Assembly: GCF_003971255.1 (NCBI RefSeq)
Contig: NZ_CP034660.1
Span: 372,001 to 436,000 of the forward strand
Direction: 5' to 3'
DNA: 64,000 bases
Origin: Colwellia sp. Arc7-635
GTDB lineage: Bacteria; Pseudomonadota; Gammaproteobacteria; Enterobacterales; Alteromonadaceae
Shown: positions 7,962-23,382 of the stretch, in pieces
Layout of the letters: the number at the start of each line of letters is the position of its first letter
Numbering within the stretch: the stretch's first letter is position 1
Made by a program: the position numbers and the translations under genes
Notes under the pieces: generated by a model
What the model saw: only the letters and a program-made list of their open reading frames with translations
Databases searched by the model: none
What the model was told of the DNA's origin: nothing

Positions 7962-9359
7962 TTAGTTATTTATCAGCTTGTTGAATCGTAATTTTTCTGA
8001 AATACAATTATTTGAGCAATGACTATATTGCCAGTGTAAATACGTTTCACTCTGACCAGATAATGCTGCTTTAATACGTTGTTTTTTAAAGGCCCCAGCA
8101 TAAGCGGTTTTTTGATTATTAATATCAAAACTGTAGCGTATTAATGCAACTCTATTTTGTTTTGCGATAGTGATGTAGTTCCAATCACCTATAATTTCTT
8201 CACCAATCTCATGCCAGCCGAGTGGTATATAAATATTGTCATGAGCCGTTGGTTTACCATTACCTAACGTACCATTGAAAAAGTACTTTAAGTAAATGTC
8301 AGGCGTGTTAGCGGTGTTCGATGATATTTGCTCTACAGTGGTATAGCGTTTAATGATCGGTTTAATTTCCGATATTTCACCGCTTGATGGTAAGTCGTTT
8401 AGAAATAATGATTTTAGTGCTGTTGATGAAATGATAATAGCGACGAATAAGATCACAGTATTCACTCGTGCAGGATAAACACTGCTTGGCGATGCTACAT
8501 TAATAACCGTGTCTGACAACAAGTCGTGATCAGCTAATTTATTACCCCACATAAACAATAAAAACATAAAGGGAATATATAAATACCATCCGAAAACATT
8601 ATGATCAGTCATTAAGTCACTTTGCATGTCGGTATATTCACCAATAAGGATTAATGCGGTAATTCTGATCCAATTAGTAAGTAAAGCGCCTAAGATAGCA
8701 ACAGTAAAAAACAGCAATGCTTTTTTGGTGTTCTTAATATAAAGAAAACTGAATAATGAGCTAATGGCGAGCGAAACTATTAAGTACCTTAGGCCACTGC
8801 AGCCGCCTGCAATTTCAAAAACTCCTGCAGGAATAGTGACAAAGTTACCTTCTACAAAAGTGGGTATGCCGCTATAGCTCATTAAAAAAGTTACTGCACT
8901 TGTTGAAACTTTTTGTAATGTGGCGGTTAGCAGCCCCCAGCCTGGCATTAGGAAGGCAAGGAACAGCGTCGGAAATATTAGCTGCCAATTTGTACGGTAT
9001 ATCAGCATGATACTTGATAATAAAATAGCTAATGTTGCCGCCCAATAACCGAGACTAATTTGTGCAGACGACATAATAAAGAGCAACGCAGCACTAGCAA
9101 TCATGAGTATTACGGTTAGCACTGATACCTGCTCGCGATATCTCAGTTGACCAATCTTAGCCAAATTATAATATAAATATATTGAGATAATAGGGATAAG
9201 GTATGCGTGTGAATAGGTGCCGTCGTCGAAACTGTTTTCCCATATTGTTTTTAAAACAGGGATGTTCAAAAAAGCAAACAATACAAAAATAAGCATGAGT
9301 CCAAAAGTGGGCTTAAGTGTGTTTTTTTCTAAAGAAAGTGTATCAGTATTATTCGTCAT
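7962..9359 (-). CDS. xrtA: Exosortase A with C-terminal EpsI-like domain
   Basis: A 465-residue protein. The first 275 residues form an eight-segment membrane exosortase domain with the three catalytic residues visible: Cys187 in EIAGGCSGLRYL, Arg232 in LTNWIRITAL and His253 in MTDHNVFGWYLY. After a further membrane segment (about 298-315), the region 320-460 resembles the EpsI/DUF3485 domain (for example YIPLGWHEIGEE), which is often fused to exosortase A. The enzyme is a cysteine transpeptidase of the inner membrane that cuts PEP-CTERM proteins after the PEP motif and releases or attaches them at the surface. Its likely substrate is encoded at 18004. It is the first gene of the minus-strand EPS cluster and is divergent from the wecB-wecC fusion. 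Confidence 0.92.
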   Translation of the reverse strand: MTNNTDTLSLEKNTLKPTFGLMLIFVLFAFLNIPVLKTIWENSFDDGTYSHAYLIPIISIYLYYNLAKIGQLRYREQVSVLTVILMIASAALLFIMSSAQISLGYWAATLAILLSSIMLIYRTNWQLIFPTLFLAFLMPGWGLLTATLQKVSTSAVTFLMSYSGIPTFVEGNFVTIPAGVFEIAGGCSGLRYLIVSLAISSLFSFLYIKNTKKALLFFTVAILGALLTNWIRITALILIGEYTDMQSDLMTDHNVFGWYLYIPFMFLLFMWGNKLADHDLLSDTVINVASPSSVYPARVNTVILFVAIIISSTALKSLFLNDLPSSGEISEIKPIIKRYTTVEQISSNTANTPDIYLKYFFNGTLGNGKPTAHDNIYIPLGWHEIGEEIIGDWNYITIAKQNRVALIRYSFDINNQKTAYAGAFKKQRIKAALSGQSETYLHWQYSHCSNNCISEKLRFNKLINN

Positions 9360-12249: not shown

Positions 12250-15014
12250 ATGAAATTGTTAAAATTATTAGTTGTTGTTGGCTTGTTGAATGGATTGGTT
12301 GCATGCAGCGAAAGTGAAACTGCAGATGTTTACCTTGAGAAAGCAAAATCTTATATTAAAGAAAACAAAGTTGATGAGAGCATTATTGAGTTAAAAAATG
12401 CTATTAAGAAAGCGCCTAAAAATAATGAAGCGCGATTTTTGTTAGGTAAACTTTATTTACAACAAGGCAGTGGTTTTGATGCTGTAAAAGAATTAGAAAA
12501 AGCACACGACCTAAATTATTTGAGTAATAAAGTTATTCCTTTGCTTGCTAGAGCATATTTAATGGTTAACTCTGATGAAGATGTGATTTCGCTGAGTGAG
12601 CAAGCTATTGCATTACCAGATGAAGTGAAATCTCAATATCTAGCTTATAACACGTTAGCTAATATTCGCTTGCAGGATAATGAGTCAGCGAAAGAATCAG
12701 TAGAATTAGCAAATAAATTAGCGACTCCAACATCTTATTCCTACCTTGCTTCAGCTTTTCTTTTACTGTCGGAAAACCAAGTTGACAGTGCAAAAGTGAA
12801 AGTGACTAGATCTCTTGAACTTGCACCAGAAGACCCTGAAGCTATTATGCTATTAGGGCAAATTAATACCACTTTAGGGCTTTTTAGCGATGCGACTGAA
12901 AATTATCTGTCATACGCCAAACTACAGCCAAGATCTAGCATGGTTATTTTATTGCTAGCAGACTCTTCTCTTAAGGATAAAGATTATAAAAACGCTGAAA
13001 AATACGCTGATCTAATTCTGAGTAAAATCCCGAATCAGCCTATTGCTCATTACGTAAAGTCTGTTGCAAAATTTGAAGTTAAAGATTACAAAAACGCTAG
13101 CATGCATGCTGAACAAGCTGAATTATTTGGCTTGAATTCACCTCAACTTAAGCTTGTTGCTGGCGCCAGTGCATATTATTTATCAAATTTCGAACAAAGT
13201 TACCGTTACTTAAATTCTATTGCTGATTCTTTACCTGCAGATCACCCCGCAATGAAAATGTTTGCAATTAGCCAGCTACAGTTAGGTTTAATTAGTGATA
13301 TTACCGATACCCTGAGTGACTTCACAGTGACAAATAAAGCTGATGCAAAGTTTTTATCGACACTCAGCATACAGTTAGCAGAGATTGGCGCAGTAGATGA
13401 TGCAAAACAGATAGCTGCTAAGGTAACAAGTAAAGCACCTGAGAATGCAGAAGAAAGCGTGCGTACAGGTATATTGAAGTTGATGCTAAATGATCCTTCA
13501 GGCATGACAAATTTACAGGATGCTGTGACCTTAAAACCGGACATGATTTCAGCTGAACTCGCATTAGTTTCCGCTGCTATTCAAGTTAATGATTTTGATA
13601 AAGCTTTAGAAATATCAAAAGACTGGCAAGAAAGATATCCCAATAAACCTGCTGCTTTTAATGTGTTAGCTACGGTGTATTTAAAACAAGGAAAGTTGGA
13701 TTCAGCTGAAAAAGCGCTAAATAGTAGTTTAAAACTTTTACCTCAAAACCAGTTTGCTCTTACTAATTTGATTAATATCGCGATGAAACGTGACGATACC
13801 GATGAAGCTGCTCGGTTGTCTGAGCTAGGTTTAGGTTACTTCCCTGATAATGAAAAAATGTTAAAGCAGTATTACGCTGTTTATAGAGGAGACGATCAAA
13901 AAAGGGCATTGGCTTCAGAAAAAGTTAAAGTAGCGCATGAAGCAAAACAAGATGATATGGCATTGGGACTTTTATACGCTGAAGTTCTTCTCGATCAGAA
14001 AGAATTTAAGCAGGCACTAGCAGTACTGGAATCTTTTGAACCGACAATTCATTCACCAAACAAATTTTGGAAATTGAAAATATTTGCCCTACGCAATGTT
14101 GATAAAGCTGCGGGAATGGTCACCGCTCTCGAAAGTTGGATGAAAACCAACCCTTATGCGATAGAACCAGCATTATTGCTTGTTGATAGTCAGTTAAGAG
14201 CTAAAGACGTAACATCAGCTCTGCGCACAGTTGATAGAGCACTTACAAGTGGTAACAAAAATAATGAAATGCTGAAAATAGCTAAAATGCAAATTTTACT
14301 TGATAGTCGAGAGTTGAACAAAGCAAAGTATTATCTTCCTGAGTTCTCAAGTAATGAAATGAATGTAAAGGTGGTTCGAGGGCTGAAGGTCGCATTCATC
14401 TTTTAGAAAAAAACTATGTACAAGCGATACCATTGTTGTCTGAATTCTATAGTGACTTCCCAACAAGTAAAAATGCCTTATTACTTGCAGTATCACAAAA
14501 TAGAGCAAAGAAATCAGATGCCGCTATTAATACTTTAAAAGCTCATCTTGAAAAGAATGATTCGGATACTCAGGTTAGATCTTTATTAGCGAATTTGTAT
14601 CTTGAAAATTATCCTGAGAAATCTATACCTCTTTATGAAAAAATGTTGATAGAAAAACCAGAGAATATTGTCTTTCTAAATAACTTAGCTTGGTTAAATC
14701 TAGAAAATAATAATTTAGAATTAGCGATGAAATACTCTGCAGAAGCGGTTAAGTTGGCTTCTAAAAACCCTAATGTACTTGATACTCGAGGTATGGTGTT
14801 ACTTAAAGCCGGAGAAACAGCTGTTGCTTTAAAAGCTTTAGAAAACGCTTATGAATTGTCAAATGGGAATGACGTAAGTATTGCGCTTAATTATGCAGAA
14901 GCGCTTATTGCAAATAAAAAAAATAAAGAAGCACTTTCTCTTTTAAAAGCACTCAATGGTCGTGACTCAAAACAAACGCAAAGAATCAACTCGCTAATAG
15001 CATTAGCGAGTTAA
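12250..15014 (+). pseudogene. prsT: PrsT-type TPR lipoprotein (XrtA/PEP-CTERM system), frameshifted
   Basis: The gene is read as two frames: 12250-14406 (718 aa) and a second frame, open from before 14370 to 15014 (its own first ATG is at 14433). The first frame ends MNVKVVRGLKVAFIF. The second continues the family sequence as EGRIHLLEKNYVQAIPLL from about 14385. Adding one base at 14380-14385 (for example in the GGG run) rejoins them into about 921 residues, the length expected for PrsT and close to its neighbour (906 aa). The N-terminus is a lipoprotein signal (LNGLVAC, Cys19), followed by tandem TPR repeats. PrsT proteins are periplasmic or outer-membrane scaffolds of exosortase-linked EPS systems. 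The cause is either a real mutation or an assembly error. The protein is probably non-functional if the frameshift is real. Confidence 0.85.
14988..15012 (+). terminator. Hairpin over the prsT stop codon
   Basis: A perfect 10-bp stem AACTCGCTAA / TTAGCGAGTT with a 5-nt loop spans the last codons and stop of the frameshifted prsT. There is no T run after it, so it is a weak terminator or an mRNA-stability hairpin between the two TPR genes. Confidence 0.4.
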
Positions 15015-15113: not shown

Positions 15114-17834
15114 ATGTATATTGGTCATAAATCTAAATTAACTATTCCAGCTTTGCTATTAGCGACAATGTTATATGGTTGTGGTGATGATAAAACATCA
15201 GCGGAATATATTGCAGAAGCAAAGGTTGCACTTGATAGTGGTAAAAGTGGCGCTGCCATTGTCAGCTTGAAAAATGTCTTAAAAGCTGAAATAGACAACG
15301 CTGAAGCTAGATTTTTACTCGGTTCGGTATATGCACAGCAAGGTTTATGGTTAGATGCAGAGAAAGAGCTGAGAAAAGCCCAAAATCTTGGTTTTGATGA
15401 GAGCGGTATGAAGCTGTTACTCCTTAAAGTTAACTACCGCCTTGATAATTTAGAGTATTTAACTTTAATAGAAGATAATGATATTTATAGTGATTTATCG
15501 AAAGTATATCTTGCACTTATAAGCCTTAAAGAAGGTGACCTAGAAAAAGGTAAAGCTATATTTGACGAAGCTATTCTAACGAGTAATACAAAAGCTATAA
15601 CCGAATTTGCTATGGCGTGGGACTCTTTTTTGAATGATAAATATACGGAGTCTTTGGGGCTACTCGACAATATTGTCGAGTCGTCTGACATTAGTGAAGA
15701 CATTATAGAATTGCGTATTGCAAATTTAACTGCACAAAAGAAACATGAAGCAGCAGCTGAACAATTAGAAATGTTTTTATCACTACACCCTCAGTCTCAT
15801 TTGCATCGTCTGCAATTAGCCGATCAGTATGTCAAAAGTAGAAATTACATTAAAGCAGAAGAGAATGCCGACCTACTTTTAACGCTATACAAAAATAACG
15901 TTGTTTTAAATAGAATCAAGGCTGAAGTTAAGTTTAATGCGAAAGACTATTCTGCGGCAAAAGAATTTTCGGAAATAGCCTTACGTAGTAATAATGATGT
16001 TCTGTCTAAAGTAATTGCTGGCATAAGTGCATATCAATTGGGGCAATATGAGTCTTCGTATAACTATCTAACTCCTGTTAGTTCTTATTTTCCTGACAAT
16101 CATCCTGTGAATCAGGTAATAAAATCATTATCGAATCAATTAAGCTTTGGTGGCGTGGGAAGTGAACAATTATTATCAGACACGGTAATTTCACTCATTA
16201 AAAGTGGTAATTACCAACAAACTAGACAGGAGTTAAATAAGGTTCCTGAGTCTACAACATTAAGTGATGGTGTTTTGGATTTCAGATTGGGATTGTTAAA
16301 AGTGATAGAGGGTGACTCTTCATTTACTGATGATTTTGAACGGGCTATTTCCAATGGCTTCGATGGTATAGAGCCTCAAGTACTTTTAGCACAAAAGCAT
16401 TTACAAGATAAAGAGTACGCTAAAGTTTTTGAGATAGCTGACTCTTTAATTTTGACTCATAAAACAACCGCTTTATTACTTAAAGCTGGTGTTTATATGG
16501 CTAAAGACGAGCTAAATGAAGCTATTGCTACCTATGAGAATATTCTTATTAGTGAGCCTAAGCATACTGGAGCAATGTTTAAGTTAAGTGAGGCTTATTT
16601 TAAAGCCGGGAATACAGCTAAGTCGATAGAGTATCTTGAAGGAATTTATTCGTTCTCATCAGCTAATTTTTATGCTGTTAGGCAGTTATTTACCTTTTCT
16701 TTAGATCCCGTTAATAAAGATAAATTGGAACAGTTTTTTGTTGATCAGGTTTCTACAGATAAGAATAATATTAACAAATACATTGTCCTAGCTGAGTTCT
16801 ATTTGTTACACAAAAAATTAGATCAGGCATTATCTATTACCTCGCGTTATTTATTAAAATCACCTGGGCAATTAGATATTTCGTTGCTTAAAATTAAGGC
16901 TCTTTTATCTTCGAATAAAATTAAGGAGGCAAAAGAAGTCTTAGTTATCCTTGAAAAAACGAGTCCTCTAAATGCCGATGTAATAAGAAATAAAGCTATC
17001 ATTTTGAATGCGAATGGAGACAAAGTTGCAGCAATTAAGTCTATTGAAGACTTTGCTAATATAAATGGTGATGGCTTAAATGACGACTTACTATTGCTAG
17101 CTAGTAGATTGTATATAGAAAACATGCAAATACTAAAAGCAGAACAAATGCTAACCAACATCAAAAATAAGGGTAGCATTAAGTACATGCGCTTAGCGGG
17201 TAGAATGGCCTTATTAAAAGGCGATAACCAACGAGCAATAGTATTGTTAGGTAAAGTTTACCAAGCACAGCCAATACAAATTGTAGCTTTAGAGCTTTCA
17301 CAAGCGTTACAAAATGTAAGTGAGTTTGATGAAGCTATTCAACTGCTAGAAAACTATATTGTCAAAGCTGAAGTAAGCAATCTGATTTTGGTTAAGTACA
17401 AGTTGGCAGAGCTATCTGAGCAAAGATATCCTCTAAAAGCAGAAAGCTATTATAAGCAACTTTTGTCAGAAACGAATAATAGCGTTGCTACATTAAATAA
17501 CTTAGCTTGGTTTTATTATACCCAGCAGCGTTATTCTGAAGCTAAAGGTTTTGCTAGTAGAGGTGTTGAAAAAGCGCCTGAACTAGGGGCAGTACATAAT
17601 ACTTTAGGCGTTATACTGCTTGAACTTGGCGAGTTAGCTGAGGCAAATAAACATTTAAAAATGTCAGTTGATTTAGAGCCGATGAATGATAAATATAAAA
17701 TTTGGTTAGCGAAAGGTTATATCTTAAGTGGAGATTCAAAATTATCGGAAGAGTTACGTGAATCTATTGGTTTTGAAGCACTGAAGCCTGAAACCCAAAC
17801 GTTGTTTAATGAAGTTTTTCTTACCGATAACTAA
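15114..17834 (+). CDS. prsT: PrsT-type TPR lipoprotein, second copy
   Basis: 906 residues. A lipoprotein signal (ALLLATMLYGC, Cys23) is followed by TPR repeats along the entire length, such as EARFLLGSVYAQQGLWLDAEKELRKA (about 62-87) and NNLAWFYYTQQRYSEAKGFASRGVEKAPELGAVHNTLGVILLELGELAEANKHL near the C-terminus. It is intact and clearly paralogous to the frameshifted gene directly upstream: both share the same N-terminal layout with the SAEYIAEAK / ADVYLEKAK repeat start. It is predicted to be lipid-anchored in the periplasm and to act as a protein-protein scaffold in EPS export in exosortase A systems. AAGGAATTT precedes the ATG. The 99-nt gap to the upstream copy suggests a common transcript. 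Confidence 0.85.
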   Translation: MYIGHKSKLTIPALLLATMLYGCGDDKTSAEYIAEAKVALDSGKSGAAIVSLKNVLKAEIDNAEARFLLGSVYAQQGLWLDAEKELRKAQNLGFDESGMKLLLLKVNYRLDNLEYLTLIEDNDIYSDLSKVYLALISLKEGDLEKGKAIFDEAILTSNTKAITEFAMAWDSFLNDKYTESLGLLDNIVESSDISEDIIELRIANLTAQKKHEAAAEQLEMFLSLHPQSHLHRLQLADQYVKSRNYIKAEENADLLLTLYKNNVVLNRIKAEVKFNAKDYSAAKEFSEIALRSNNDVLSKVIAGISAYQLGQYESSYNYLTPVSSYFPDNHPVNQVIKSLSNQLSFGGVGSEQLLSDTVISLIKSGNYQQTRQELNKVPESTTLSDGVLDFRLGLLKVIEGDSSFTDDFERAISNGFDGIEPQVLLAQKHLQDKEYAKVFEIADSLILTHKTTALLLKAGVYMAKDELNEAIATYENILISEPKHTGAMFKLSEAYFKAGNTAKSIEYLEGIYSFSSANFYAVRQLFTFSLDPVNKDKLEQFFVDQVSTDKNNINKYIVLAEFYLLHKKLDQALSITSRYLLKSPGQLDISLLKIKALLSSNKIKEAKEVLVILEKTSPLNADVIRNKAIILNANGDKVAAIKSIEDFANINGDGLNDDLLLLASRLYIENMQILKAEQMLTNIKNKGSIKYMRLAGRMALLKGDNQRAIVLLGKVYQAQPIQIVALELSQALQNVSEFDEAIQLLENYIVKAEVSNLILVKYKLAELSEQRYPLKAESYYKQLLSETNNSVATLNNLAWFYYTQQRYSEAKGFASRGVEKAPELGAVHNTLGVILLELGELAEANKHLKMSVDLEPMNDKYKIWLAKGYILSGDSKLSEELRESIGFEALKPETQTLFNEVFLTDN

Positions 17835-18003: not shown

Positions 18004-18855
18004 ATGAAATTTAATATATTAAAAGCAGCTACAGTTGCTAGCGTTTTAGCTTTCGGTTCAGCACATGCAGATTCAATCCAAGTTGACTTAAATGCTGACT
18101 TAACATTATCTTCAGCATTTGATGAACTTTCAGTAGATTATAATTCACACACAATAGTGAATACAACTACTGGCGTTGTACAAACATTTGCTGGCGCAAA
18201 TTTAATTGGTAATAACATCTTAGGTCTTGGCGTTATTAATACTGATTTTAATGACTTAACAGCTTTTGGTGGTGTAAATACTTTTAGCTCTGCTCCTAAT
18301 GATAACTTTCTTCGCATTGAAGAAGGTGGCACTTTAGCTATGAAAGATTCATACCTAACATTTGGTGTTGATTTAATGGGTACATTTAGCAATACAGGTA
18401 TTGTATATAATTCAGGTACATTAGATGTATGGCAGGGTTACACAAACGGTACACCTGCTGTGAAAATCATGACATCAACATTTACATCAGGCGGATTAAC
18501 TGCTGGTAACCAAGATGTATTATCAACTTCAGGTGCAGTTGATGTATTGAAAAATGGTGTATTATATTTTGACGTAAATGGCACACCAGTTTCTTTTGAT
18601 GATTACTTTCTAGCTAACCCACTTGCTGATATTCGTTTGACTATTGATCAAAACGTAACTGGTGGTGCAGCTTCAGTTGTAGCAGCTGTTGGTGGTAGTG
18701 TTGCTGATGGTTTTAAAGGTGCTGTTGGTGATTTGGTATATGTAAGTGCAAACCATAATGCTTCACTTACTTTTGCTGTTCCAGAGCCAACTTCTTTAGC
18801 AATTTTAGGTTTAGGTTTATTAGGTTTTGCTGGCTCACGTCGTCGTAAATCTTAA
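18004..18855 (+). CDS. PEP-CTERM sorting-signal surface protein
   Basis: 283 residues. A Sec signal peptide (residues 1-22, cleavage after SAHA) is followed by a low-Cys, Asn/Thr/Gly-rich beta-type body. The protein closes with the full PEP-CTERM tripartite signal: VPEP at 259-262, a hydrophobic helix (TSLAILGLGLLGFAG) and a basic tail SRRRKS. Exosortase A would cleave at the PEP motif. The body has no recognised domain and no enzymatic motif; surface or matrix proteins of this kind are often glycosylated. It has a strong ribosome site (AAGGGA), its own sigma-54-like promoter and a terminator, so it is a single-gene unit. Being next to xrtA and prsT makes it the probable local substrate. Confidence 0.92.
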   Translation: MKFNILKAATVASVLAFGSAHADSIQVDLNADLTLSSAFDELSVDYNSHTIVNTTTGVVQTFAGANLIGNNILGLGVINTDFNDLTAFGGVNTFSSAPNDNFLRIEEGGTLAMKDSYLTFGVDLMGTFSNTGIVYNSGTLDVWQGYTNGTPAVKIMTSTFTSGGLTAGNQDVLSTSGAVDVLKNGVLYFDVNGTPVSFDDYFLANPLADIRLTIDQNVTGGAASVVAAVGGSVADGFKGAVGDLVYVSANHNASLTFAVPEPTSLAILGLGLLGFAGSRRRKS

Positions 18856-19040: not shown

Positions 19041-19356
19041 TATATATCCATTCCACTTCAAGATGCAGTTTCAGCGCTAAGCTAGGCATTCAAATCAAGG
19101 CGCAATACGCCGATAATGGTCACTCCCTTATCAAGAACAGCACAGTTTTTTGCTCCAGACAAAGCCTAAGTACATCCATCCATGTATGCAACGCAGGACT
19201 GATTTTTTAGCCTAGCTCCAAACGGGCAAGCCGATAATGGGTCATCTGAGGCGTTATTGATTTCGAGAAAAGAATAACTAGTCCCTTCAATCAATGCCTT
19301 GGTGCTAACCCGTTATCTACTTGCACAAATCTGCATTTTGAAGTTGAGCGAGTATA
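19041..19356 (-). repeat. MITE-like repeat, copy 2 (316 bp, inverted relative to copy 1)
   Basis: The reverse complement of this stretch aligns with the repeat at 11943-12210 from end to end, with scattered mismatches. The same imperfect terminal inverted repeats are present (TATATATCCATTCCACTTCA at the left, GAAGTTGAGCGAGTATA at the right). It contains about 48 bp absent from copy 1, including the small palindrome TACATGGATGGATGTA. TATA at both ends could be a target duplication. No transposase is present, so it is non-autonomous if mobile. Confidence 0.85.
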
Positions 19357-19582
19357 AGGCTAGAGTATTATAAATACGGTTTACAACTGACGAATATAAA
19401 AGAGTAAACGTTTGCTGTTGATGAGCATAAACTAAAAGCTGTTATGTGAAATATGGGGCTGAATTAAAGTTACTGATAAACCTTTCCTGCTGTTAAGCAA
19501 TAATCACATTGAATATTATTATTGTATTAGGCATAAAAAAACCGCTAATGCGGCTTTTAAAAGTATGCTTATCTTGATCGAG
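19357..19582. other. Non-coding stretch between repeat copy 2 and thiF-like gene
   Basis: No gene or further repeat was seen here apart from the minus-strand terminator at 19535-19558. Together with the repeat and the PEP-CTERM terminator it makes up the 727-bp gene-free interval 18856-19582. Confidence 0.6.
19535..19558 (-). terminator. Terminator of the ThiF-like gene
   Basis: Read on the minus strand, AAAAGCCGC ATTA GCGGTTTTTT forms a short GC stem extended by A-T pairs with one unpaired G, and ends in six Ts. It lies 25 nt past the stop of the ThiF-like gene. Confidence 0.75.
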
Positions 19583-20473
19583 CTAGTTATTATCTTTCAA
19601 TAACTCTTTCACCCGCCAAAACATAAAGCGCTGTAGCCAATTTCTATTACCCCAAGGACGCCATGTTTTAATCAAATTGTTTCTGTAGGCATCAAAGTGC
19701 ATGCCATGAGGCGCATGGATTACATCTCCACGTTTTAATAATATTTTTAATACATTGGTACAAAGTGTTCCTGCTGCCAAGGAAATGCCCATACAAGTAG
19801 ATGGAACTTTCTTTTTAAGGAAGTTAACCGATGAGCGATTCACTAGATAATGGCGCTGTTGTACCGAAGGTGAAACTCCGATAACAAACCGTATAATATT
19901 ATCATTGAAAATTTGAGCTTTTTCTTCTTCGCTGGCATTGGCCGCTGCATCGACAATGGCAAAATATTCATCGAAAGACATTTTTCCAGGCATAAATACT
20001 AAAAAAGCAGTGCCCATACCCATAGGAGCTGCTGTAATTGCCGGAATGCCTTTTTCATAACAACGACGAAATACTTTACGTCGGATCTCTAAAACAAAAA
20101 TGTCGAGGCTATCTACATAAATATCAACACCCTCTAAAAAATCATCTAGGTTATCTTCATTGATGCCAGAGTCGAAATTTTTTATAGTTGCTTCAGGATT
20201 GATGCCTCTGATAGTTTCTTCCATCACGGCTGCTTTAGGTTGACCTAAAGTGGACATGTTAGCGCCAGCTTGACGATTAAAGTTAGCAACATCATAGTCA
20301 TCAAGATCAGATATATGGAAATTGCCAATACCTAAACGGGCCAATACAATGGTATGGTCGCCGCCTACGCCACCTAAACCACCAATGGCAACTTTGGTAT
20401 TTCTAAGCTGTTGCTGCTCTTCTTCTGTCACCCAACCAATATTTCGTGAGAATGCTTCTTCATAGTTAAACAT
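19583..20473 (-). CDS. ThiF/MoeB/E1-like adenylyltransferase, exosortase-region associated
   Basis: 296 residues. It has the ATP-binding motif GGLGGVGG (31-38) and the following strand-loop SDLDDYDVANFNRQ (55-68) with the conserved Asp and Arg67 of E1-like enzymes. The CxxC zinc pairs usual in MoeB and ThiF are not evident. No ThiS/MoaD-like small protein is encoded nearby, so thiamin or molybdopterin synthesis is unlikely. Members adenylate a carboxyl group (protein C-terminus or small acid). The gene follows an acyltransferase of the LuxI/FeeM type by 81 nt in the same direction, which suggests joint action on an acyl product. The true substrate is unknown. Confidence 0.8.
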   Translation of the reverse strand: MFNYEEAFSRNIGWVTEEEQQQLRNTKVAIGGLGGVGGDHTIVLARLGIGNFHISDLDDYDVANFNRQAGANMSTLGQPKAAVMEETIRGINPEATIKNFDSGINEDNLDDFLEGVDIYVDSLDIFVLEIRRKVFRRCYEKGIPAITAAPMGMGTAFLVFMPGKMSFDEYFAIVDAAANASEEEKAQIFNDNIIRFVIGVSPSVQQRHYLVNRSSVNFLKKKVPSTCMGISLAAGTLCTNVLKILLKRGDVIHAPHGMHFDAYRNNLIKTWRPWGNRNWLQRFMFWRVKELLKDNN

Positions 20474-20554
20474 GAGGTTCCTTTTATACTAAAGAATTAA
20501 TTACATAGAGCTTACATCTGTTTTTAATATTGCTAAGAAAATTAATGTCAGGTC

Positions 20555-21367
20555 CTAAAATGTCAATTGGCCACTAATTTCTTTTTGTATTTCTTTATAA
20601 AGACACTTAAATCCGGGAGATAAGTTCTCCATAAAAATTGATGAATTAATATAGTAGGGTGCTCTTAAACCATGATAGTCGATAGCTTCACCCAACTGTA
20701 TAAAGTGAATGCCAACAAACTTCATACTACGAGCCAAACGAGGCTCCATCATGACATAAACATGTTTTACACCAGTATCAATACTCATGATACCGGCAGC
20801 CATATAAAGCCCAATAGCAATAAATGGAAAACAGCGTAATTCTGTTTCTGAATAGCTAGATTCACTAATTGCACCAACTGCTGAACCTTTAAACTTATCG
20901 GTTTTACGTCGTCTAAATTCGGCTTTTACTGCTAGGCGGGATATTTCGGCAATTTCGGTACGGGGAAAGTTACTTGGATGTAATTCCTTATTTTGAATAG
21001 CTTCCATACAATATTTTTCTATCGGAAGTAATTCATCATCGTTTGCTGATTTAACTACTCTTACACAGCTAGTATAAGTATTGCTAGGTTTATGCTTGAT
21101 CATAGAAAAAATTGATTGAGCATCAAATTCGTCTTGCTCTTTACCTTCATCTTTAACTTTTTCAAAAGCAAGCTCTTCACAATAAACATTATGACGTATA
21201 CGAAAAACTTCATCACGTAGTTGATCGTTGATTGCTATTTCAGGTTTCAGGAATTGAGTAAAGTGCTCAGCAATATTCATAGCATCATGATTTACTTTTA
21301 TTGATGCTATTCGTTTGGAGACATTTCCAATTATAGGTGCATTTAGCAATTTCTTGCTCCAACTCAT
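20555..21367 (-). CDS. PEP-CTERM/exosortase-associated acyltransferase (LuxI/FeeM-like)
   Basis: 270 residues. Residues 51-68 (RDEVFRIRHNVYCEELAF) match the N-terminal signature of autoinducer synthases and N-acyl amino acid synthases (R-x-x-V-x-x-x-E-x-x). SCVRVV (about 100-105) and EISRLAVKAEFRRR (141-154) are the next conserved blocks of that fold. Such proteins transfer an acyl chain from acyl-ACP or acyl-CoA to an amino group. A subfamily is largely restricted to genomes with exosortases, consistent with the cluster 11 kb away. No LuxR-type receptor is nearby, so a quorum signal is not implied. It is probably co-transcribed with the ThiF-like gene downstream. Confidence 0.75.
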   Translation of the reverse strand: MSWSKKLLNAPIIGNVSKRIASIKVNHDAMNIAEHFTQFLKPEIAINDQLRDEVFRIRHNVYCEELAFEKVKDEGKEQDEFDAQSIFSMIKHKPSNTYTSCVRVVKSANDDELLPIEKYCMEAIQNKELHPSNFPRTEIAEISRLAVKAEFRRRKTDKFKGSAVGAISESSYSETELRCFPFIAIGLYMAAGIMSIDTGVKHVYVMMEPRLARSMKFVGIHFIQLGEAIDYHGLRAPYYINSSIFMENLSPGFKCLYKEIQKEISGQLTF

Positions 21368-21516
21368 TATGACCTCAGCTTTTTAGCGTAATTAAAGGTT
21401 AGGTATAGATACCATTATTACTTTTTTTATTTTAGTTATGTAATTAATTTAGCATGTAATACATAATTATAGAATATATTAGTTAAGTTATTGAACTAAT
21501 ATGACATTTTAATGAT

Positions 21517-22356
21517 TTATTCGACATAAGGTATTCTATTATCAAGTTTAGTTTTAATAGGAACTATCTCCATTGCCGTTTGGTAACCAGTATCAAATAA
21601 GGTCAGCTTTTTTTCTTTACTCATACCAAAGTCAACAGCAGAGCATAGGCCAGTATTGATGATAATCGTATTGTGCCAAAAAGCGTCATTAATATACTCG
21701 CGAGAAATTGTTGTCATAAATGTGCGAATAAGTAAGGTGACGTAGTTAATAATAGGGAACATGCCATTAGTTTTAAGTTCGTCAAATTCATGCTCTCCGC
21801 GCAATCTGAAACATAATACGGGCGTATCATCCATAGCCCAGTCTCGATGCAGAGCATCTTCTGATAATATGCTGCCATCTACCATCAAGTGGTTCCCAAA
21901 CTTTTTAAAACTAAATATTAACGGAATCGACATAGAGAAACGTACGGCTAAAGAAACTTTCATACCGGGTGTTCGTTTACTGTCGAAGATAACCGGACGA
22001 CCAGTTTTTACATCAGTTGCTACTATATGCAGGTTTTTCTCTAGATCGATAAACGTTTTGCCTTGTAAGTGATAGTCGACCCATTGCTCGAAAACATCAC
22101 CTGAACTTAAGCCGCCATTACGAATCAAGCTGATTAATGAAAAGCCTTTAAATTGATTATAATCCGTATTTATCGCTATTTGTTTAATCTCTGAAATCGA
22201 TAAGCCAGATGCGTACAAACTTGCAATTATGCTGCCGCCAGAGACACCAACGATATGAGAAAAATCAATCTGTAAGTCTTTTAATGCTTGTAGCACTCCA
22301 ATATGAGCGGGTAAACGAGTTCCTCCGCCAGCTAAAATAGGCACTATATTTGCCAC
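21517..22356 (-). CDS. Patatin-like phospholipase
   Basis: 279 residues. The oxyanion-hole motif GGGTR (10-14), the nucleophile elbow GVSGG (Ser39) and the catalytic Asp160 in VDGS form the complete Ser-Asp dyad of patatin-like acyl hydrolases. There is no signal peptide and no extra transmembrane domain, so it is probably cytoplasmic or secreted by another route. The substrate would be a phospholipid or other acyl ester. The minus-strand series continues 149 nt downstream with the LuxI/FeeM-like acyltransferase and the ThiF-like gene. A joint role in lipid turnover and acylation is possible but not shown. It is divergent from the S1 protease gene. Confidence 0.85.
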   Translation of the reverse strand: MANIVPILAGGGTRLPAHIGVLQALKDLQIDFSHIVGVSGGSIIASLYASGLSISEIKQIAINTDYNQFKGFSLISLIRNGGLSSGDVFEQWVDYHLQGKTFIDLEKNLHIVATDVKTGRPVIFDSKRTPGMKVSLAVRFSMSIPLIFSFKKFGNHLMVDGSILSEDALHRDWAMDDTPVLCFRLRGEHEFDELKTNGMFPIINYVTLLIRTFMTTISREYINDAFWHNTIIINTGLCSAVDFGMSKEKKLTLFDTGYQTAMEIVPIKTKLDNRIPYVE

Positions 22357-22617: not shown

Positions 22618-23382
22618 ATGAGTCGCATATTACAGTCGTTAATATTTTTTATGATGCTATTGAGTTTGACTGCTCACAGCAGTTTGGTTGATACCATCAG
22701 TAAGATTAAGCCTTCTGTGGTTGGGATTGGTGTTTATACGCCAACAGGACGACCGAAAAATCAACTATTTGGTAGTGGTTTTGTTATTGGCGATGGGACT
22801 TATATTGTAACGAATAAGCATGTTATTGCTCAGGACCTAGATGATAATTTACTCCAAGAATTGGCTGTATTTGTCGGTAAAGGCCCGGCGGCTAAGGTAA
22901 AAGTAGCTAAGTTAGTGGCTAGTGATGACGAGCATGATATTGCTATTTTGAAAATTGAAGGTCGTCCGCTGCCAGCATTGTCGTTAGCAAAAAGTGACTT
23001 TAAAGCTGAAGGTACTAGCATTGCCTTTACCGGTTTTCCCATCGGCGCGGTATTAGGACTTTATCCTGTAACACATAGAGGTATCATTGCTGCGGTTACA
23101 CCGACTATTATTCCCGTTGATGACTCAAGACAGCTCAGTATAGCGATGCTGAAAAGACTAAGAGATCCTTATTTAGTTTATCAGCTAGATGCTACTGCGT
23201 ATCCAGGTAATAGCGGTAGTGCTATGTATGATGTTAGTACTGGCGAAGTTGTTGGTATTATTAACAAAGTTTTCGTCCAAGGAAGCAAAGAAACCGTGAT
23301 CAGTAAACCCAGTGGTATCACTTATGCTATTCCGGTTAAGTATTTACATAAGCTTTTACAGCAGCACAAAATAAAAATTTAG
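22618..23382 (+). CDS. Secreted trypsin-like (S1C) serine protease without PDZ domain
   Basis: 254 residues. The signal peptide covers about 1-21. The protease domain has the complete triad: His68 in TNKHVI, Asp107 in HDIAIL and Ser199 in PGNSGSAM. This resembles the protease half of DegP/DegS, but the protein ends right after the protease domain, so it lacks the PDZ modules that regulate those enzymes. An AAAAAGGATA ribosome site precedes the ATG. It is predicted to be periplasmic or extracellular. Its divergence from the patatin gene and distance of about 4 kb from the PEP-CTERM gene could link it to surface-protein handling, but that is speculation. Confidence 0.85.
   Translation: MSRILQSLIFFMMLLSLTAHSSLVDTISKIKPSVVGIGVYTPTGRPKNQLFGSGFVIGDGTYIVTNKHVIAQDLDDNLLQELAVFVGKGPAAKVKVAKLVASDDEHDIAILKIEGRPLPALSLAKSDFKAEGTSIAFTGFPIGAVLGLYPVTHRGIIAAVTPTIIPVDDSRQLSIAMLKRLRDPYLVYQLDATAYPGNSGSAMYDVSTGEVVGIINKVFVQGSKETVISKPSGITYAIPVKYLHKLLQQHKIKI

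Follow-up and report, generated by a model that had tools for sequence, protein, structure and literature searches.

Several bacterial pathways couple an N-acyl amino acid synthase (NAS) to an E1-like protein of the ThiF family. In Mycobacterium tuberculosis, TyzA makes N-acyl-tyrosine, the nitroreductase TyzC carries out desaturation and the ThiF-type protein TyzB cyclises with ATP, giving an oxazolone (PMC10404671). In the TrzS fusion, cyclisation precedes desaturation, and a cyclised, non-oxidised intermediate builds up when O2 is limiting (PMC12856293). The activated carboxyl in these characterised pathways cyclises intramolecularly, without conjugation to a partner (PMC10404671, PMC12856293). 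Acid hydrolyses oxazolones, and alcohols react with them (PMC12856293). What oxazolones do for the bacteria that make them is described as a major unresolved issue (PMC12856293). NAS, ThiF and nitroreductase genes also occur together in Thalassotalea sp., which produces thalassotalic acids, and in a producer of kyonggic acid (PMC12479983). Here we describe a related locus from Colwellia sp. Arc7-635 (contig NZ_CP034660.1, positions 372,001 to 436,000; this whole stretch of 64,000 nucleotides is referred to as the window), in which genes for a patatin-like phospholipase, a NAS and a ThiF-type protein likely constitute a three-gene operon and the nitroreductase is missing.

Comparison with described systems sets the frame for this locus. 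Like the window, OxzAB of Pseudoalteromonas rubra combines NAS with a ThiF-type cyclase in a gammaproteobacterium, but OxzB is a ThiF-nitroreductase fusion (PMC10404671, PMC12856293), whereas no such nitroreductase was found in the whole Colwellia genome and a patatin gene precedes NAS. The mycobacterial TyzABC and TrzAS systems likewise pair an N-acyltransferase with a ThiF cyclase acting on the carboxyl of an N-acyl amino acid; they differ in possessing a desaturase, and neither article uses the word exosortase (PMC10404671, PMC12856293). TyzA has few homologues, mostly mycobacterial (PMC10404671). In the clusters for thalassotalic acids, kyonggic acids and stieleriacines NAS adjoins a ThiF family gene, as in the window, but these clusters contain a nitroreductase to which the 2,3-double bond is attributed, and patatin, exosortase and PEP-CTERM go unmentioned in the article (PMC12479983). 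Thalassotalea, source genus of thalassotalic acids, is also among the named relatives found in this work (L218, L222). UBA/ThiF-type genes are further contained, together with a peptidase S1, in the PEP-CTERM exopolysaccharide (EPS) cluster of Rubrivivax gelatinosus, where the table passage assigns no function to them (PMC3684757).

The original prediction, made from the sequence, took the three genes for a possible undescribed acyl-conjugation locus. Such novelty is not supported, since NAS with ThiF (and nitroreductase) is the known cluster type of oxazolones and N-acyl dehydrotyrosines (PMC10404671, PMC12856293, PMC12479983), and the chemistry is mostly known because the ThiF relatives OxzB, TyzB and TrzS cyclise N-acyl amino acids with ATP, yielding oxazolones. 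The postulated activation of the carboxyl of an acyl-amino-acid product was right in kind, its outline being already described for ThiF relatives. What is new is the absence of a desaturase, along with the company of a lipase and a surface protein sorting system. A literature text search, beyond whose reach lay most subscription journals, retrieved, among the papers listed, no description of a desaturase-free NAS-ThiF pair or of a patatin partner. To our knowledge, the description of PEP-CTERM-linked NAS (TIGR03694; Craig et al. 2011) does not include ThiF and patatin partners either.

The three open reading frames (ORFs) were confirmed as predicted at 19583..22356. All lie on the minus strand, with gaps of 149 nt between patatin and NAS and 81 nt between NAS and ThiF (Table 1), so that an acyltransferase gene stands beside the ThiF gene on the same strand, as in oxazolone and N-acyl dehydrotyrosine pathways. 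The E1-like protein scores 395 bits against NF006077 (PRK08223; cut-off 266) and 138.7 bits against PF00899 (ThiF), which agrees with its predicted placement among ThiF/E1-like adenylyltransferases, and falls far below the cut-offs of ThiF, MoeB and TcdA models. The nucleotide-binding GxGGVG loop (residues 32-37) and R67, K80, D124 and R131, residues likely to serve adenylation, are invariant in 11 aligned rows. Judging by motif, we take D124 to be equivalent to the aspartate mutated in TrzS. By analogy with TyzB and TrzS, the window ThiF would cyclise an N-acyl amino acid at the expense of ATP.

Features of sulfur-carrier-activating MoeB/ThiF enzymes, that is zinc-binding Cys pairs and a ubiquitin-like partner, were not seen. 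The protein contains no CxxC pair, unlike a MoeB-like protein encoded elsewhere in the genome (CYQC...CPIC). No open frame of at least 40 amino acids (aa) ending with Gly-Gly exists between 12 and 30 kb of the window, thus a ubiquitin-like partner is not encoded there; neither was a ubiquitin-like protein seen among ORFs of at least 40 aa in 18.85-22.62 kb. No thiamin or molybdenum cofactor genes were recognised by reading the ORFs of at least 80 aa in 14-28 kb. On all these points the original prediction was correct, as it was in setting the protein apart from housekeeping MoeB/ThiF enzymes.

The acyltransferase matches TIGR03694 with 256 bits (cut-off 112) and Acetyltransf_5 with 45 bits. 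From its sequence, it is an exosortase-linked NAS, and the exosortase-associated type assigned to it previously is hereby upheld; the likeness to LuxI (21.9 bits) and FeeM (21.7 bits), proposed at the same time, stays below the cut-offs of both models. N-acyl amino acid synthesis is known for NAS enzymes and is predicted for the window enzyme.

We examined conservation of the module in 274 genomes of the class (Gammaproteobacteria) and 118 genomes of the family (Alteromonadaceae). In the class, NF006077 is present above cut-off in 26 genomes, TIGR03694 in 33 and both in 20; by their listed positions, the two genes lie at most 11 kb from each other in 19 of these 20 genomes, G247 being the exception with a distance of about 22 kb. 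In the family, ThiF was detected over cut-off in 61 genomes, NAS in 84, a patatin orthologue in 68 and exosortase in 92. The genes belong together, as had been supposed, rare co-occurrence not being observed: NAS accompanies 60 of the 61 ThiFs and 65 of the 68 patatins, and 50 of the 68 patatin genomes also carry ThiF. NAS is located within six genes of ThiF in 60 of 61 genomes (for the 61 family loci, near means within six called genes; locus L143 spans just 4 kb). The exception to the co-occurrence of ThiF and NAS, G312, has a short contig in which a partial NAS adjoins ThiF. In 48 of the 61 family loci NAS immediately precedes ThiF in the same orientation with a gap under 400 nt (median gap 15.5 nt). 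This linkage goes beyond chance.

A flavin-dependent desaturase, fused or adjacent in oxazolone and N-acyl dehydrotyrosine pathways, is lacking from the window module. Searches of the host genome with a single protein and with a profile of 17 rows revealed no nitroreductase of the ThiF-linked type, and tblastn for a remnant in the window gave chance-level pieces only (best E 1.6-2). Elsewhere, a nitroreductase is fused to or near ThiF in 17 of 61 family loci and in 15 of 24 class loci (12, and 3 after re-annotation). These proteins are about 350-380 aa long, and examples match PF00881; their best NCBIfam matches, the Rv1355c (TrzS) and Acg families, are both under the model cut-offs. All 17 strong nitroreductase matches in the family adjoin ThiF, and the other 44 of 61 ThiF genomes have none, save distant weak matches in G286 and G366.

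A tree was constructed from 79 of the 85 ThiF-bearing loci (61 family, 24 class), with branch support given only by the Shimodaira-Hasegawa-like approximate likelihood ratio test (SH-aLRT). The simple gene caller or the score filter removed L054, L056, L060, L062, L065 and L066, and L055 is a long, unsure row. The window protein falls into a clade of 16 rows (SH-aLRT 100), three of them from other families, in which nitroreductase occurs in none. The nitroreductase label requires 7 changes on the tree versus a mean of 22.7 after shuffling, and the starred branches alone force 3. Among 80 named loci, nitroreductase was labelled in 27, yet in none of the 28 best-ranked ones within the stretch examined; labels were assigned with profiles built from family and class loci, which a divergent NAS or nitroreductase may escape. 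The 28 loci come from Cognaticolwellia, Colwellia, Rheinheimera, Alteromonas, Thiobacillus, Azoarcus, Thiohalophilus and others.

The ThiF protein is under strong constraint. Compared with loci of other species (L136, L178, L179), it displays 93-96% amino acid identity while fourfold sites match in just 38-41%, and in the same three loci NAS (70-87%) and patatin (69-89%) are less conserved; constraint on ThiF is therefore strong and tighter than on NAS or patatin. Three loci of the same genus carry a different ThiF, 56-60% identical to that of the window and also without nitroreductase, with NAS 82-87% identical. The 96% identity to L136 of another genus, against 56-60% within the genus, might suggest that ThiF was recently acquired by horizontal transfer, but this was not supported, as fourfold sites match L136 in only 38%. 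Strong constraint and two old ThiF versions within the genus fit better. Since a desaturase-free clade is combined with strong constraint, the desaturase-free ThiF locus looks like a stable, maintained variant rather than a decayed cluster.

Further, we examined association with exosortase and PEP-CTERM proteins. ThiF is accompanied by exosortase in all 61 family genomes and in 25 of 26 class genomes (the exception being G098); for NAS the association is looser in the class (23 of 33). A PEP-CTERM gene is near ThiF in 50 of 61 family loci and in the examined stretch of 24 of the 28 best-ranked named loci. From 89 loci 87 PEP-CTERM-tailed proteins were collected; 37 of them (35 loci) form one homologous group, whose members lie a median of 357 bp away from ThiF, and the window PEP-CTERM protein (18004..18855) belongs to this group. 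This protein is PepA-like only, as it reaches 52.5 bits against floc_PepA (NF033554; cut-off 80). When 26 near-full-length floc_PepA proteins were taken among the matches listed, 12 lay within 10 kb of ThiF; another 6 came from ThiF genomes but from a different contig, and 8 from genomes without ThiF. PepA overexpression in an Aquincola rpoN1 mutant restored flocs and increased bound exopolysaccharide (PMC9850573). A methanotroph mutant in a PEP-CTERM-linked NAS lost a polysaccharide band, and complementation restored it (PMC11072679). A functional link of the module to the surface matrix is plausible but indirect.

Two observations concern individual loci. In L188, L189, L190, L191 and L194 ThiF stands beside a PEP-CTERM gene while NAS and nitroreductase are unlabelled in the stretch examined (L190 and L194 are short), and the ThiF-PEP-CTERM link may stand without NAS. 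In L136 (10606-14831), ThiF is followed by four successive PEP-CTERM genes, each coding for 286 aa.

The patatin possesses the GxSxG serine, DG[G/S] aspartate and oxyanion GGGxR of PF01734. Its Ser39/Asp160 dyad is intact, as predicted, and invariant together with GGGTR in 7 aligned orthologues; PlpD is the best solved relative by sequence. Patatin and NAS are at most 10 kb apart in 57 of the 68 patatin genomes, with patatin upstream on the same strand in 55; these counts are lower bounds, 85 of 105 NAS places having been entered (the best per genome plus one). Even in patatin genomes without ThiF, NAS is found within 10 kb in 13 of 18, which indicates that patatin goes with NAS rather than with ThiF. 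Patatin was labelled in 28 of the 80 named loci, one of which (L241, Motiliproteus) probably belongs to another family.

Taken together, we consider it quite probable that an N-acyl amino acid is produced by NAS and activated at its carboxyl by ThiF, ring closure to a saturated oxazolone being the likeliest outcome. NAS would N-acylate an amino acid, probably an aromatic one, with a chain taken from acyl-acyl carrier protein or acyl-CoA. ThiF would bind ATP and adenylate the free carboxyl, upon which the amide oxygen would close the ring to a saturated oxazolone; alternatively, its output may be an activated acyl-aminoacyl donor. No desaturation would follow without nitroreductase and, a saturated oxazolone being reactive, it would either hydrolyse or hand its acyl-aminoacyl group to a nucleophile. 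Patatin may free, supply or edit acyl chains for or from the pathway, as its linkage suggests. The module, observed in association with the exosortase, PEP-CTERM and EPS system, would serve that system.

Several facts weigh against this proposal. A very divergent desaturase may escape the nitroreductase profile, built as it was from 17 sequences. No TIGR03694 match over cut-off exists in 6 of the 26 ThiF-bearing class genomes. Of the 28 best-ranked named loci, 7 have no labelled NAS in the stretch examined (L188-L191, L194, L197 and L200; two are short), and in five of these 7 ThiF adjoins a PEP-CTERM gene, so NAS may not be the sole source of substrate for ThiF. In 11 of 68 family genomes patatin is distant from NAS or on another contig, or NAS was not found. 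We know of no desaturase-free cluster with a known product. Oxazolones are reported not to have been observed with stieleriacines, kyonggic acids or thalassotalic acids, and M. umbonata, which yields saturated kyonggic acids only, has neither ThiF nor nitroreductase (PMC12479983); saturated N-acyl tyrosines therefore do not require ThiF.

The chemistry could differ in its last step. The E1-like protein might ligate acyl-aminoacyl-AMP to an amine (on a protein, an amino lipid or an amino sugar of the exopolysaccharide) without releasing an oxazolone, which would be true conjugation as originally proposed. We regard this as unlikely, even though a constrained clade without desaturase needs some other use for the activated carboxyl and ThiF lies beside PEP-CTERM and exosortase genes. 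Structure comparison appears to point the same way: in a Foldseek search of PDB with an AlphaFold2 model of ThiF, MccB was the top match and structures described as AclA and PaaA were among the best 50. MccB forms a new N-linked bond at a peptide carboxyl. However, MoeB, ThiF and UBA5 follow MccB within two orders of magnitude of E-value and with similar TM-scores, and the model is moderate (mean predicted local distance difference test score, pLDDT, 77.9). Since matches to the E1-like fold are this generic, the structure search does not separate cyclisation from conjugation. Characterised ThiF relatives cyclise, and the operon conserves no dedicated acceptor or ligase partner. As for patatin, it may be an unrelated neighbour of a pathway formed by NAS and ThiF alone, a view we hold to be possible though rather doubtful: none of the 24 non-family class loci received a patatin label (20 by own gene calls, 4 re-annotated), and the 11 genomes mentioned above agree with this view, but the co-occurrence with NAS and the common position upstream of it within 10 kb, proximity that is also seen without ThiF, speak for partnership.

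Other explanations deny the module a present role in such a pathway. The locus could be a degraded cluster of thalassotalic acid type, with nitroreductase lost, a repeat downstream and ThiF left over. A repeat of about 315 bp does lie directly downstream of ThiF, and the same-family genome G139 retains a nitroreductase at that place. Yet the nitroreductase-free ThiF clade, the absence of nitroreductase from the examined stretch of the 28 best-ranked named loci, the lack of a tblastn remnant in the window and the selection evident from amino acid identity against fourfold sites already disfavour decay, which we deem very improbable. A housekeeping MoeB-, ThiF- or TcdA-type enzyme placed here by chance would belong to the same superfamily (PF00899). 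It was rejected and is hardly credible given the low model scores and the linkage with NAS, the genome moreover encoding two other PF00899 proteins elsewhere, one MoeB-like and carrying Cys pairs, the other TcdA-like by eye.

With carboxyl activation on an N-acyl amino acid as the favoured reading, its significance lies in a conserved, likely operon where ThiF would work without a desaturase, near exosortase and a PepA-like protein and with a companion patatin. This operon is a tractable test case, as it predicts a product unlike those of known pathways and tied to matrix assembly. It is a speculative and decidedly unlikely extension that the desaturase-free ThiF branch makes acyl-aminoacyl donors (saturated oxazolone or adenylate) which modify the exosortase-made surface matrix. 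Acceptors might then be, for example, amino groups of the exopolysaccharide, PEP-CTERM proteins of PepA type or whatever exosortase itself uses as acceptor. If true, this would be a bacterial surface-lipidation route starting from an E1-like enzyme and a small molecule, with no ubiquitin-like protein.

Table 1. Patatin-NAS-ThiF module and neighbouring features of the window
Feature	Position	Strand	Remarks
Patatin-like phospholipase	21517..22356	-	279 aa, GTG start; PF01734 112.3 bits
N-acyl amino acid synthase (NAS), exosortase-associated acyltransferase	20555..21367	-	270 aa; TIGR03694
Predicted E1-like (ThiF-type) acyl-amino-acid carboxylate adenylyltransferase / oxazolone cyclase, desaturase-free clade	19583..20473	-	296 aa; NF006077
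Trypsin-like serine protease, divergent neighbour	22618..23382	+	PF13365 87.9 bits; likely signal peptide (by eye)
PepA-like PEP-CTERM protein	18004..18855	+	PEP-CTERM 31.1 bits
PrsT (PEP-CTERM tetratricopeptide repeat lipoprotein), copy 1, larger N-terminal part	12250..14406	+	718 aa; TIGR02917 510 bits
PrsT-like piece, probably C-terminal part of copy 1	14433..15014	+	193 aa, TTG start; clusters with PrsT
PrsT, copy 2	15114..17834	+	906 aa, single ORF; TIGR02917 364 bits
Exosortase (PF09721 matched range)	8541..9284	-	contig 380541-381284; E 3.8e-45

On the ThiF side the module is flanked by exosortase, PrsT and PEP-CTERM genes, which the original prediction had not mentioned; nor had it noted that the usual nitroreductase is missing. 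In 52 of 61 family loci a trypsin-like protease lies no more than six genes from ThiF, against 21 of 61 for the adjoining polysaccharide deacetylase; as the protease recurs more than the deacetylase, it may belong to the module. Exporters (MMPL/RND, LolA-like, DUF1302 outer-membrane and MacB-type ABC proteins), which recur near ThiF outside the family, were rejected as parts of the window module, with MMPL near ThiF in 3 of 61 family loci, the others in 0 of 61 and none adjoining the window genes. In L051, L053, L060, L063 and L074, all outside the family, the recurring set of MMPL/RND, DUF1302-type outer-membrane and LolA-like proteins resembles a route for product export.

Downstream of ThiF on the minus strand, a possible short GC stem followed by T's is visible by eye at about 19532-19556; an automated scan did not list it. 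The repeat of about 315 bp (19041-19357) resembles miniature inverted-repeat transposable elements, contains no recognised coding sequence and has 52 matching pieces genome-wide, including itself. PrsT copy 1 is apparently split into two ORFs with a short gap between them (12250-15014), and copy 2 is a single ORF.

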